A DNA stretch of 64,000 nt from Antedon mediterranea (Eukaryota; Echinodermata; Crinoidea; Comatulida; Antedonidae). The translations under genes were made by a program, and so were the position numbers. The stretch spans positions 40,007,304-40,071,303 of the forward strand of contig NC_092671.1 of the NCBI RefSeq assembly GCF_964355755.1, given 5' to 3'. Below, in pieces: positions 45,898 through 52,175 of this stretch. The first letter of the stretch is position 1. The number at the start of each line of letters is the position of its first letter. Below the pieces are notes generated by a model that saw nothing but the letters and a program-made list of their open reading frames with translations, was not told the origin of the DNA and searched no databases.

Positions 45898-46360
45898 TTT
45901 GCTTTTTTTGTATTTTAAACCTTGTTTACGGCACGAATGCTGAAGAATTCTAAACTTGCCGTGCCGGTTTCCAAAATGGCTGCTGGTTGGCCCAAAAACT
46001 GTAAAAGCTGCTTTGTAATTGGCCAATGTGATAATAGCTAGCAATTCTATGATTCTGAAAGAATTTACAAAAATCATAATTTATATGTAATACCTTATAA
46101 AAAATTGACATAAAACTAATTAAAATGTAAAAAATCTGAAATACGTGGCAGTATCTGAATAATATGTATGTAATGTACTTTTCTTGTTATATTTGCGGCA
46201 GCCAATCAATAATATCGTACAAAATTACTTCGACATAAACTTTGACCCAATAGTAATCAAAAGGCCATGTGTGTAGTGTAAAAACTTGATATAAAAAGCG
46301 AGAGAAAAGGTGCGGTGTGTTGTCGTTTTTAATGTCTTTATGAAAATCCCCTTATTAAAT
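45898..46360. promoter_or_regulatory. Bidirectional ATP5PB / WDR77 promoter region
   Basis: The 463 bp between the two divergent start codons must hold both transcription starts. Visible candidate sites: CCAAAATGGCTGC (45971-45983), a YY1-like core common at start sites of nuclear-encoded mitochondrial genes; ATTGGCCAAT (46018-46027), a back-to-back CCAAT pair; CCAAT at 46202-46206 and 46247-46251. No TATA box is convincing and there is no strong CpG island. Site function is inference. Confidence 0.6.
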
Positions 46361-49300
46361 ATGGAGTCAGAACAACTAGCTACGAACTCAAACTTACCAG
46401 CAGCCATGGATAAGCAGCTGGATGTCTTAATGCATAATAGAGGCAAGTCATTAATACATTATAAGTTACCCAGCCCCGGCAGCGCCCCGGCAGACTCTGT
46501 CTGTGAGATGGGGTAGGCCTACCCCTGAGATGTGTAAGGTTGATTGAGGAAGAGAGTGAACAACCACCGCGGACAGATCGGGATCCAGTCAAGTCGCCCC
46601 ATCGCAAAGTCGCCCATACAAAGTCGCCCAATACAAAGTCGCCCCATCGCAAAGTCGCCCCAAAACAAAGTCGCCCCGGCACAGTCGCCCCATCTCAAAG
46701 TCGCCCCATTACAAAGTCGCCCCATCGCAAATTCGCCCCATCGCAAAGTCGCCCCAACGCAAAGTCGCCCAATCGCAAAGTCGCCCACGGTTTTAATCAT
46801 ATCGGTTGCGTTTGATGATATCGATTGCGTTGTTATGCACTTGTCAATTGTATGACCCACTATACGACCCCCGGGAGAGGTGCGTCATTTGTCCGATGTG
46901 CGTCATACTTTTGAATACCATGACGCACCCGTGCGTCAAAAAGGTGACTTACCTTTAGGTGACCATGACGCACCCATTTTGACGCACTGTGACCATGTTG
47001 TTTATGATATGGTGGGTGGTAAAGTGACGGACCTTGACACACCTTGTTCATTGATGTGACGTACCATCTAGGTTTTTTGACGCACCCCTGCGTCAGTAAT
47101 TATTTGTAAATGACGCACCCATGACGCACCTCTCCCGGGGGTCGTATAGTGAGTCATACAATTGACAAGTGCATTACTTTGGTCGCGCTAAATGTCGTAT
47201 ACATTAATGTTTATCCTATTATATACATAATATGTGTTTTAATTTGTATTTTACAGGTTTTAATGGAGTGATGTGCTTTTTAAAAATCATTAAAAAAATA
47301 GTCCCTTGTTTGAAAGTTTTAAAAAGATTATCCCTGATTTATAGTTTCGAAAATGTTAATTTAATATGATTTTAAAATTAGTTACCAGAGCCACAATTAC
47401 AATTTCTTCAACCTACGCGATACCAGCTCATTTTTTAGGATAATAGCCTATAATAAATGTATAAATGTGTAGTAGGCCTTCGTATAGATTTACAGTAGTT
47501 AAAACAATAACAGTGTTGTAAGACGAGTGTTATAGGCTACTTATTGATCATTTTGCATTTATTGACAAGTTATGTGTCTTAATTTTATAATGACTTTTCA
47601 AAATGAAGAAAAAAAGGGGATTTCATCGCCGATATGATTGTTTTACATGCAGGTATTAGTAAAATTAAAACGCGACATTTTGACCATGGAAAAACCATCG
47701 TACAGTATCGTGTGCGTGTTTTTTAAAAAGGGGAATCCCCGACGGTCAGCAGAAAGACGTAGCAGCTGTGAGGAAACAGATACCAGAAGGCGCAGCTCCG
47801 ATTGGATTCAGAGAATGTTTCAGATGGCGAGTCGCCTTTTATTCAACAGCACAATGATCATTTTACTGAAGAAATTTATTTCAATCCTTTTGGTTATAGA
47901 ACATTCTAATTATAATGCCTAATAAATATCCTCATATCAGGTGTTTATTTAATTTTAAATTAAACAAGACAGTGAAGAGGCACGGAATAATACGTACACG
48001 GACGTACGACAAATACACACACGCACGTTATCATTTACGACATATAGTGGTGATATGATGCAATTTTATAATGGGATATAATGATGGGATTGCCTTTCCA
48101 GGAGTCTTACAATCAATGTTCACTGTAATACTATGTATATAATAGTAAACTGAATGTTTATAAATAAATTGTTTTACGTAATTTGTTGCATATAAAATAA
48201 AAGACACAGACGTAGCCTACGTTTCCTATAAAATATTTCACATTTAAATAATTATGTACTGTTAAATGACATTATGCTGGATAATACTATATCTTAAACT
48301 ATGTTTACAAATTGTCATTTTTTAAGCCACACATCTTTCTCATCATAGGCCTACTGACCTGTAAAATAAAAACAAAAATCAATTATTAATATAGGCCTAA
48401 TAATAATAATAAATATTCATCGACCAAAGTAAAAATAATCTAGATCGTATAACATCATTTTATCGCGACCGATTTCGAACGCGACTGATGATATCATCGT
48501 AAAACTCCGGCGGGGTTTCCCCATCTTCAGATGGTGCGTTGTAGAGTGCGACAACGGCAACGGCGGAGTAATTACGGGGGTTTCCCTCTGGTAAGCTAGC
48601 ACGTTAGAGTGCGACCGCGGAGTGCGACCGAGTGATTAGTCGGGGGCTTCCTCTCTGATATGGGGGTGCGTGCCGATTGTGTGACCTGAGACTACATGGC
48701 GGGGCTTCCCCTTTTTATGCCTACACGTTCTGTGTTATTTTGTGTATCATTGCAACATTTTACGCACTTGTAAACTATTTTTTAACGTTTTGGGGCGACT
48801 TTGCGTTGGGGCGACTTTGTGATGGGGCGACTTTGCGATGGAGCGACTTTGCGTTGGGGCGACTTTGCGATGGGGCGACTTTGTTTTGGGGCGACTTTGC
48901 GATGGGGCGACTGTGTAAGGGGCGACTTTGTATGGGGCGACTTTGCGATGGGGCGACTTGACTAGCATCCGACAGATCTGGCCTGGATGGCTCTTATTTG
49001 TTATATAGGCCTAGCTTATTGATAGTAGAGTAGACTAAGTCAATGTTATGATAATCTTGCTGTTATCTCTGGATATTCATTTTATAAAAATAAACTGCAT
49101 TATTAAACTCTCTCTCTCACTTTAAAATATATAAATATATATTATCATTTTATTGGTGATCAATTTATTTTTTAGATGGTTCTCTTATTCTTGGTGCATC
49201 TAGTTTAACTGGTCGATATTGGGCTGGTTCATTATGGTTCTATGAAGATCCAAATAATGCCCCAACAATCGAACGCAGCAGTGCTGGTGTGCAAACTGAG

Positions 49301-52175
49301 GCTGGTGTAACAGACATTGTATGGATAGATGAGTTACGAGTTGCAGTCGCTTCAGACACTGGTAGGTTGAATCGTTAAATGCATACGTTTTCCTCCTAAT
49401 GTTTTGCTATATTATCTTAGAATGTAATTAAACATAAGATATATATTTGTTCAACTTGTTTTACATATATATTTTTATTTGATCATTTAAATGCATTTTT
49501 TCGTCAGGTGCTGTTGAGATTTGGCAACTTATCGATAGCAGAAGCTCATTCAAAAATCTCTTCTACTTATTTGAACATCATGAAACTGTGAACTCTGTCA
49601 AAATAAATTCTAATAGAACAAGACTCGCAAGTGGCAGTGCTGATTGTCTGTAAGATTACTAACATTGTCAATTGTTAGTTCTAGATAAAAATCATTTAAT
49701 TTGAATGTAAAATCGTGAGGTAATTTCCGGTATGATCGTAATCAAAACGGTACTGGGTTTGGTCTACTAGCGTTCCTGCTCCCAACCAGTCATCCATTCA
49801 TAGAAGCCTTAATGAAGAAAGCCTACCTGGTGGTGGCCATAGAACGGTCCCGAGATAATGACTATACTTCAGTTTTAGTCGATAAAAGATTGAAATATTG
49901 TTAGAGATATAGTATACGATGTTTGATTATGTGTAGATGTGTGATTTGTTCTATTATTCAATAGTATAGTCGTTATCTCGGGACCGTTCTATGGCCACCA
50001 CCAGGTAGGCTTACTTCATTAAGCCTTCTATGAATGGATGACTGGTTGGGAGGAGGAACGCTAGTAGACCAAACCCAGTATCGTTTTGATTACGATCAAT
50101 CAGGAAATTACTTCACGATGAAACCTTCTCAATTTTAAAACAAACGCTTGCAATGTGCTGGGTTGCATTTGTTAAGAAATTTGTTCACTGAATGATACCC
50201 TGAAGTGAAGTGTTCCCTAACGTTTAACCAATGTTTTTTTTTCAGAATAAAGATTTGGGATGTTGCTGGCCAATGCTCAACAGGTACATACCATGCTCAT
50301 ACAGCACCAGTAGAAAAGGTAGCATGGAGTCCAGTGGAATTAGAAGTGTTTGCCTCATGTTCTCAAGTAAGTGTAATGCATGCCATACTCACACATCACT
50401 TGCCTCATGTTCTCAAGTAAGTGTAATGCATGCCATACTCACACATCACTTGCCTCATGTTCTCAAGTAAGTGTAATGCATGCCATACTCACATCACTTG
50501 CCTCATGTTCTCAAGTAAGTGTAATGCATGCCATACTCGCACATCACTTGCCTCATGTTCTTAAGTAAGTGTAATGCATGCCATACTCACACATCACTTG
50601 CCTCATGTTCTCAAGTAAGTGTAATGCATGCCATACTCACACATCACTTGCCTCATGTTCTCAAGTAAGTGTAATGCATGCCATACTCACACATCACTTG
50701 CCTCATGTTCTCAAGTAAGTGTAATGCATGCCATACTCACACATCACTTGCCTCATGTTCTCAAGTAAGTGTAATGCATGCCATACTCACACATCACTTG
50801 CCTCATGTTCTCAAGTAAGTGTAATGCATGCCATACTCACACATCACTTGCCTCATGTTCTCAAGTAAGTGTAATGCATGCCATACTCACACATCACTTG
50901 CCTCAAAAAGGTACAGTAGAGAGTGATGTCCAATTTTGGATTGATTGATTGATTGATTTTATTCGATATTCATACATAAAAGTTAAAATATACAATGTAT
51001 AAAAGAGAATACCTGGATAACCCATTAAGTCGACAAAAAAGTAAACTTATTTCCAATGGGGTCCAATCCGTAATGACTGAAAAGTGAGTGGTTGGGCCTA
51101 GTACAATTATCATTAAGTATGACTCAGTAAAAATGAAAAAAACAAGAAAATACATACAAGACAAGATAACATAAAAAAAACAATATTAAAAATAACTTAA
51201 TTAAACTGAAATTCCAAGTATGCTGGTTAATCATTCAGCTAGATCAGTATTGATATTTAATAGCTCCTTTTTTCCAACAATATTCAGGATGGACGCGTTT
51301 TGCTCTGGGACACAAGGAAACCTAAGCCTGCCTTCAAAGTTGACCAAAGCCCTTTGTACTCTCTACCCACTTCATTGGCATGGAAGCCTGGTGAAACAGC
51401 AGTCATTGCTATAGGTATACTACAATTTAAATAGAAATATTTTTACAGATATTTATTCTAATGTAAAATAATGAAATTGTTATTTTATATTTAAATACTT
51501 TATTCATATTTTAGGTGATGAGACTGGTCACATAGTGTTAAAGGATATCCGTAATGCGAATGGAATGATTAAAGACTGTAAATCACATACTAGAGCAGTC
51601 CATAGACTTGCATTTTCACCAAAAAAGTAAGGTTACTAAAAACGATATCAAGTTGAGATATTATTATTATAAATGACAGTATTTTAACATATTTACAAAA
51701 TATTATGTAGTTGTTATGTTAATTGATGATGATTTATTAAAATGTATGAGGGTTTTTTTTATAGTGGAACTTGGTTGGCATCTGTGTCAGATGATAGCAC
51801 AGCCGTTGTTACTGATATGGCAAATGAGCCGAGACAAATGTAAGTCACAAATGCAGATCATTATACATTAGTTAACATTAGCTTGAACTCATTTATTTAT
51901 AAAACTCAAGTTATTTGTACTGTATATTTGTATATATAATATAAAACTAATATTTTCTATATCTGCTTTATTTCTTCAGTTACCGTAGTTACAGCCATAA
52001 TGACTTTGTACGTGGGTTGTCATGGGACCCTCTTAGCAACAAGCTATTTACGTGTGGATGGGATAAACAAGTTTGCACGCATGTTGTGACAATGCCAGCT
52101 GATGATAGAATGGACATAAGTACACCAGCAGCCAGTTACAGCAGTAAGGTTAAAGGTCATACAACTAAGAGCTAA
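46361..52175 (+). CDS. WDR77: Methylosome WD-repeat protein WDR77/MEP50
   Basis: WD40 propeller that binds PRMT5 and presents substrates (Sm proteins, histones H2A/H4, PIWI tails) for symmetric arginine dimethylation. Exons: 46361-46442, 49176-49361, 49508-49649, 50246-50366, 51288-51414, 51515-51626, 51765-51839, 51980-52175. The phases join to 346 aa (human about 342). ATG at 46361 is the first in frame. Diagnostic blocks: [142 protein letters not shown] and FTCGWDKQV. Intron 1 starts AG|GCAAGT, a GC-AG intron, and holds a 2.4-kb transposon. Exon 4's donor is tandemly amplified. AATAAA lies at 52248. Confidence 0.96.
46580..48970. mobile_element. TU-like foldback transposon with 16-bp-array arms and 8-bp TSD
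   Basis: The exact 8-bp repeat GACAGATC flanks the element (46572-46579 and 48971-48978). Both outer ends read GGAT-C-AGTCAAGTCGCCCC inward and continue as arrays of a 16-bp unit, CAAAGTCGCCCCATCG: about 13 units on the left (46586-46795) and about 11 on the right (48787-48962) in opposite orientation. The outer five units correspond one to one in both arms by their variable last bases (ATCG, ATA, A/T-TA, ATCG, AAAA), so the arms share ancestry. The 2-kb interior has a nested MITE and no recognised transposase. An 8-bp duplication with array-built arms matches what I recall of sea-urchin TU elements. Confidence 0.85.
46836..47173. mobile_element. Harbinger-like MITE nested in the foldback element
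   Basis: Inverted ends of about 55 bp with one or two mismatches: TGCACTTGTCAATTGTATGAC ... ACTATACGACCCCCGGGAGA ... GGTGCGTCAT. TTA is duplicated on both sides (46833-46835, 47174-47176). The interior is largely copies of TGACGCACC(C) in both orientations, a motif also inside the terminal repeats. No coding capacity. Confidence 0.88.
49712..50119. mobile_element. 408-bp foldback element in WDR77 intron 3
   Basis: The left arm (49712-49866) and right arm (about 49965-50119) are inverted copies: ATCGTGAGGTAATTTCC, GATCGTAATCAAAACGGTAC, TGGGTTTGGTCTACTAGCG and CCTACCTGGTGGTGGCCATA. About 95% of roughly 150 bp matches. The central spacer is about 100 bp and AT-rich. No clear target duplication was found. 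It ends 126 bp before exon 4. Confidence 0.9.
50349..50905 (+). repeat. 50-bp minisatellite built from the WDR77 exon 4 splice donor
   Basis: The unit runs TTGCCTCATGTTCTCAAGTAAG + TGTAATGCATGCCATACTCA + CACATCAC and includes the last 18 exonic bases of exon 4 and its donor CTCAA|GTAAGT. About 11 donor copies are spaced 48-50 bp. One has TTAAGTAAG and one has a 2-bp deletion. The first copy (exon end 50366) keeps the frame into exon 5; use of the next copies adds 50-bp steps and meets TAA. Short overlapping reading frames here are artefacts. Confidence 0.95.
50938..51080 (-). mobile_element. Probable LINE 3' end, inverted
   Basis: (GATT)n followed by TTATTCGATATTCATACATA and AT-rich sequence has the form of a LINE 3' terminus on the minus strand. 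It begins about 30 bp after the splice-donor array. No protein remnant. Confidence 0.4.

Follow-up and report, generated by a model that had tools for sequence, protein, structure and literature searches.

The 64,000-nucleotide stretch of Antedon mediterranea DNA analysed here (the window) contains a gene of eight coding exons with a predicted product of 353 aa, and the end of its fourth exon lies inside a minisatellite that repeats the splice donor (Table 1). Comparison with PDB sequences placed the product clearly: the top 13 of the best 60 matches were methylosome protein 50/WDR77 or the MGC81050 protein (E 3e-64 to 3e-62), the next match after this group, 2ymu, reached only E 8.5e-37, and solved methylosome protein 50 could be aligned over 229 of the 230 query residues. 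Judged by its protein sequence, the gene is the WDR77/MEP50 orthologue, as a sequence-only reading of this DNA had proposed. Five genome matches to WDR77 lay outside the locus, all at 28-38% identity, and WDR77 is therefore single copy in this assembly. The open-frame peptide of exon 4 gave WD40-type Pfam matches, the best with E 9.8e-5, which is below that model's cut-off. When exon 4 was joined to exon 5 via the first donor, the alignment to methylosome protein 50 was gap-free at the junction, and the earlier placement of the exon 4 end (50366) and the exon 5 start (51288) proved right by both frame and alignment.

Table 1. Features of WDR77 and its donor minisatellite in the window, and places elsewhere in the genome where an exon ends at the first of several donors.
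Feature	Position	Strand	Basis or remark
WDR77 exon 1, coding part	46340..46442	+	GC donor GAG/GCAAGT
WDR77 exon 2	49176..49361	+	AG/GT, frame; alignment to methylosome protein 50
WDR77 exon 3	49508..49649	+	alignment to methylosome protein 50, frame
WDR77 exon 4, 121 nt	50246..50366	+	ends in first repeat copy, CAA/GTAAGT, phase 0
Minisatellite	50350..50905	+	11 units (50 bp; third 48 bp) and an 8-bp partial copy
Donor 1	50367..50372	+	only donor keeping the WDR77 frame; gap-free junction in protein alignment
Donors 2-11	50417..50870	+	premature stop predicted for each
WDR77 exon 5	51288..51414	+	alignment to methylosome protein 50, frame
WDR77 exons 6-8 and introns between	51515..52175	+	exons 51515-51626, 51765-51839, 51980-52175 (including stop)
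L001			Pfam CoA-transferase III; PDB sequences support SUGCT
L004			Pfam DUF4592
L005			Pfam SNF2
L006			Pfam PSI
L007			Pfam DPAGT1 insertion domain
L008			Pfam MADF, weak, under cut-off (the weakly supported one of the eight)
L010			PDB sequences support DHX8
L013			PDB sequences support TDP2

Several other features of the gene were observed along the way. Intron 1 appears to have a GC donor, the sole GT/GC candidate in 46400-46459 that keeps the 353-aa frame open. The same intron carries two opposite-orientation arrays of related 16-bp units (46591-46786 and 48791-48959), whose arms of up to 151 nt are 87% complementary and could form a long RNA hairpin. Intron 3 holds a foldback element with 166-nt arms (49703-49868 and 49963-50128) that are 92% complementary and 94 nt apart; by eye it looks like a MITE. 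Rfam and tRNA scans of the 64-kb window were empty.

The minisatellite has a period of 50, 11.2 copies and 98% matches by TRF, in agreement with the earlier description of about 11 head-to-tail copies of a 50-bp unit. It overlaps exon 4 by 17 bases (50350-50366), and the remainder is intron 4; the sequence-only reading had put its start one base too early and counted 18 exon bases. GTAAGT starts at 50367, 50417, 50467, 50515, 50565, 50615, 50665, 50715, 50765, 50815 and 50865, with a spacing of 50 in nine of the ten intervals and 48 in one, and it is intact in all 11 full copies. The earlier statement that all copies but one or two keep the donor was thus slightly pessimistic, the one change beside it being in copy 5, where TAA replaces CAA before GTAAGT. 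Copy 3 is 2 bp short, and in copy 4 a single base is substituted at a position that is not part of the donor. A partial copy, TTGCCTCA, closes the array, and since each unit opens with the same 8-mer, this 8-mer stands at both ends. The locus therefore carries a splice-donor minisatellite, that is, an exon-end tandem array with a consensus donor in every unit, the first of which forms the end of exon 4. In a search of the 354-Mb assembly that skipped very common words, the array matched nowhere but at this locus. An older duplication of exon 4 sequence was considered as the source of the unit and set aside: with 17/21 identities, and with shuffles reaching the score in 22/1000 cases for the unit and 5/1000 for the tail, it is suggestive only.

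The eleven donors are equal in predicted strength and unequal in predicted outcome. The predicted U1 duplex was -7.5 kcal/mol, identical across all 11, which bears out the earlier claim of near-equal donors, and the claim that only the first keeps the WDR77 frame also held. Use of donor 2 would add 50 nt with no stop in the retained repeat, shifting the frame so that a stop follows at the end of exon 5, whereas donors 3-11 would add 100-498 nt and meet a TAA stop within the retained repeats; the proposal that the other donors add multiples of about 50 bp and a TAA is thus correct for donors 3-11 and fails for donor 2. Added units that stay in frame do not occur in this array, with its period of 50 and a premature stop from each of the ten surplus donors. 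Because the last junction follows every one of the ten stops at a distance of 187-758 nt, nonsense-mediated decay (NMD) is predicted for these mRNAs. From the protein frame, donor 1 is most likely the donor used in WDR77.

The genome was searched for donor words paired at the spacing of a minisatellite, and in the resulting arrays the open frame was read up to the first donor and then compared with Pfam or PDB sequences. Among the matches listed, which end before the later contigs, these analyses found at least eight further genes in which the first donor of an identical series marks the end of a conserved exon (Table 1). The exon beyond the array was readable in SUGCT, SHPRH, PSI, DHX8 and TDP2, and the distance from the last donor to the acceptor was ~240, 88, 159, 85 and 222 nt, respectively; the whole array intron of SHPRH is ~187 nt. 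Joining the first donor to the next exon produced no junction insertion in WDR77, DHX8, TDP2 or SUGCT. Array periods were divisible by three in two of the nine best-supported arrays, both 33 bp. Plausible exons with no database match were present at L022, L023-L026 and L081/L082.

In the DUF4592 gene (L004, ~1200-2050) the reading frame continues open through an entire in-frame array of 33-bp donor units. Each of about two dozen units codes for VSTRGRLSSSQ or a variant and carries a donor as well, so that donor choice could set protein length there in 11-aa steps. L023-L026 share one short exon-like stretch with a 34-bp AGGTGAGT array at four listed places of contig C3 (20.09, 20.60, 20.74 and 21.38 Mb) with differing copy numbers, perhaps a duplicated gene with a varying array. 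A further CAGGTAAGT array, whose spacing is close to 131 bp or twice that, occupies C1:2122170-2125620. A dispersed short sequence, TTTTCAGGTAAATA ... TTTTTCAGG, which resembles a tiny GT-AG interval, occurs in about eleven listed rows on C1, C2, C4, C6, C7, C9 and C10.

With TRF arrays covering 8509 of the 64,000 bases of the window, some of them are bound to coincide with splice sites. We compared the arrays of the donor word CAAGTAAGT with places where the word is single. Homology-supported exon ends, defined by a Pfam match with E <=0.01 (some of the 14 below are under the curated cut-off), were found for 6/11 arrays under the longest-frame rule, or 7/11 if the PSI frame, which is not the longest, is counted, versus 14/40 single words (Fisher p = 0.30 for 6/11), a small test in which the arrays are those with at least two rows among the matches listed. 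The 40 single words were taken in order along contig C1, and the 29 with an open frame of >=25 aa were scanned; among their peptides L073 and L077 are identical and L062 and L076 nearly so. On the array side, L002, L009 and L085 have frames <25 aa and went unscanned, and L002 and L003 share one unit. Of the single-row places, L015, L016, L017 and L018 were read, and C8:27268540 and C9:1028751 were left out. The suspicion that arrays prefer real donors was therefore not borne out; this small sample shows neither preference for nor avoidance of real donors by arrays.

We also asked if the donor is kept in each copy. In exon-end arrays, donor 9-mers differed among copies at 11/1116 positions compared to 128/3625 in the rest of the unit (p 2e-6), and GT was lost in 2 of 124 tiled copies, with tiling incomplete for DHX8 (8 units) and SHPRH (3). 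However, arrays without exon evidence gave the same picture, with 9/1062 differing positions in the donor 9-mer versus 104/3474 elsewhere, the tiling there being incomplete for L002 (0 units) and L014 (1). Since the slower change of the donor is equalled in arrays without exon evidence, it is most likely explained by ascertainment in the search itself, and selection keeping the donor in each copy was rejected as its cause. Rows of donor words exceeded those of the reversed pattern in four of five comparisons (156 vs 65, 261 vs 421, 349 vs 134, 47 vs 28 and 86 vs 21), counts in which each copy is a row and a few long arrays dominate. A lower frequency in arrays of the stronger CAG donors than of CAA donors was also considered, and the arrays are too few to claim it.

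According to the available text of Carranza, Shenasa and Hertel (2022, PMC9225289), splicing went exclusively to the upstream donor in each of five human minigenes that carried a pair of identical CAG/guaagu donors, with 365-nt introns on both sides. In the same text, strength-matched human donor pairs prefer the upstream site when both introns are >250 nt, short introns favour the downstream one, and ~60% of human events taken without strength matching prefer the downstream donor. Both introns flanking WDR77 exon 4 exceed this published 250-nt cut-off: intron 3 measures 596 nt, and intron 4 measures 921 nt when counted from donor 1 and still 423 nt when counted from donor 11. The upstream-donor rule thus predicts donor 1. 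The sequence-only reading had stressed that the gene must choose the most upstream of many equal donors, and by analogy with the minigenes, as far as the text of PMC9225289 at hand goes, such a choice would be less odd than it appears.

Predicted RNA accessibility gave no general alternative to this rule. Donor 1 of WDR77 had the highest predicted accessibility of the eleven in 3/3 window settings of the prediction, and the first donor was also the most accessible in SHPRH (3/3 settings) and in the CRACD-like array (1/3). However, it was the least accessible in PSI, MADF and DHX8 (3/3 settings), most of the eight arrays other than WDR77 do not share the pattern, and RNA structure that hides the inner donors was therefore rejected as a general rule.

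The WDR77 array is, we believe, probably the product of minisatellite turnover in a repeat-rich genome, tolerated since cross-exon pairing selects the first donor. A founding unit would have straddled the exon 4 donor, and the array would have grown from it via slippage or unequal exchange, with the 8-bp direct repeat that bounds it as the probable seed. Ten surplus donors would now follow the true one. Given the long introns on either side of exon 4, the exon 4 acceptor would most likely pair with the nearest donor across the exon, which is donor 1; the surplus copies would mostly be ignored, and any use of them would lead to a premature stop and NMD. The published rule behind this step is, in the available text, a human one for two donors, where WDR77 has eleven (PMC9225289). 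In quantitative terms, tolerance is suggested chiefly by the small sample in which arrays showed neither preference for nor avoidance of real donors. The arrangement would then be tolerated and not adaptive, and its recurrence in other genes of this minisatellite-rich genome would have the same cause. The arrangement is probably ordinary in origin and neutral, but recurrent.

The sequence-only reading had suggested instead that repeat-length variation tunes productive WDR77 output, the surplus donors being substantially used and feeding NMD so that copy number sets the level. Ten donors of equal strength, all leading to a premature stop far enough upstream of the last junction for predicted NMD, are what such a rheostat would need, and in human IFI6 two downstream repeat units do act as donors, giving three mRNAs according to the available text (PMC4526556). 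However, the minigene data favour exclusive upstream use (PMC9225289, in the text available), the same anatomy recurs in unrelated genes with no significant excess over single words, and the slower change of the donor 9-mer is equalled in arrays without exon evidence. We therefore regard a repeat-number rheostat as unlikely. Mostly unproductive WDR77 mRNA, which the sequence-only reading gave as the alternative to upstream choice, is likewise unsupported, and the earlier interpretation of the array as a whole is partly supported.

A mildly beneficial role for the surplus donors, by recruiting U1 snRNP and thereby aiding exon 4 definition or shielding the intron from premature polyadenylation, appears more doubtful still. 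U1 suppresses intronic polyadenylation, and the array of intact U1 sites is itself what speaks for such a platform; against it, arrays show no significant excess at supported donors, and donor-specific constraint does not exceed ascertainment. Least probable of all, and very improbable, is that assembly inflated or collapsed the copy number: the number does come from one assembly with copies 98% alike, but copies 3, 4 and 5 each have their own difference, the locus was matched once, arrays of diverged copies recur elsewhere, and the assembly, with eleven contigs of 22-41 Mb, looks like one built from long reads, although the exact copy number may still be off.

Tolerance through cross-exon pairing becomes strained in SUGCT, SHPRH, PSI, DHX8 and TDP2, where intron proximity would favour the last donor and the protein needs the first. 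With such short last-donor introns, either exon pairing or transcription order prevails, or these genes lose mRNA. This conflict between first and last donor is what makes the class useful. A broader proposal is that a whole class of exon-end donor minisatellites exists in core genes of this genome, among them the gene for the splicing helicase DHX8, and persists because the spliceosome commits to the first donor and so overrides the intron-proximity rule, although an identical donor stands only ~85-240 nt away from the acceptor; we put this forward tentatively, as a possibility with the balance still against it.

Acceptor arrays were also surveyed. L029 is a three-copy 39-bp acceptor array at 700-785, at the start of an exon that matches DDX54 among PDB sequences, and there the real acceptor is the last copy. 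Fifteen TTTTCAGG arrays, L029 among them, were inspected for an exon downstream of the final copy, and none of the 6 peptides compared with Pfam matched; single TTTTCAGG sites gave a Pfam match in 0/37 cases (15 scanned). Acceptor-word rows outnumbered those of the reversed pattern by 95 to 15. For acceptors, the preference for the upstream site is weakened by exon definition, according to the available text of PMC9225289. A donor-acceptor asymmetry was set aside, as single TTTTCAGG sites, at 0/37, provide no base rate.

The closest precedent in the literature text available is human IFI6 (G1P3, 6-16), where a minisatellite supplies several donors; it was reportedly described by Turri, Cuin and Porter in 1995 (NAR 23:1854). 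The WDR77 unit, unlike the 12-bp in-frame unit of IFI6, is 50 bp and out of frame and lies in a conserved core gene, and the arrangement recurs in several genes of one genome. Tandem donors of the GYNGYN type are another relative, the study of which is said to be by Hiller and co-workers. Like the WDR77 array these are tandem donors at one exon end, but in the text available they stand a few bases apart and cause subtle protein changes, whereas WDR77 has a minisatellite of whole exon-intron junctions (Genome Biol 2006, PMC1779574). The minigenes of PMC9225289 share with WDR77 identical donors, one acceptor and long flanking introns, and differ, as far as that text goes, in having two engineered donors in a human minigene in place of eleven natural ones. 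Ma, Lan and Niu (2016, PMC4974935) likewise describe a tandem duplication that copied a splice boundary; in the text available it yielded a new intron in a potato gene, whereas in WDR77 the array extends an intron that was already there, with no gain of a further one implied. Among the titles and abstract openings listed from the open-licence literature, none described genome-wide arrays of whole exon-intron junctions, which is weak evidence of novelty. A minisatellite with several donors is thus known from IFI6, and what is new is that the WDR77 arrangement recurs in at least eight more genes.

The usual test of how a spliceosome chooses among identical donors relies on engineered pairs, as in PMC9225289. 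This genome offers arrays that arose naturally, with 4 to 27 identical donors, spread over several genes and at very different distances from the acceptor, and one RNA-seq experiment on them would separate first-transcribed, cross-exon and cross-intron rules. By extrapolation, and with no count behind the figure, exon-end donor minisatellites perhaps number in the hundreds in this genome. The arrays suggest that donor copies placed downstream cause little harm, and this tolerance of donor copies bears on how introns lengthen and how genes tolerate minisatellites.
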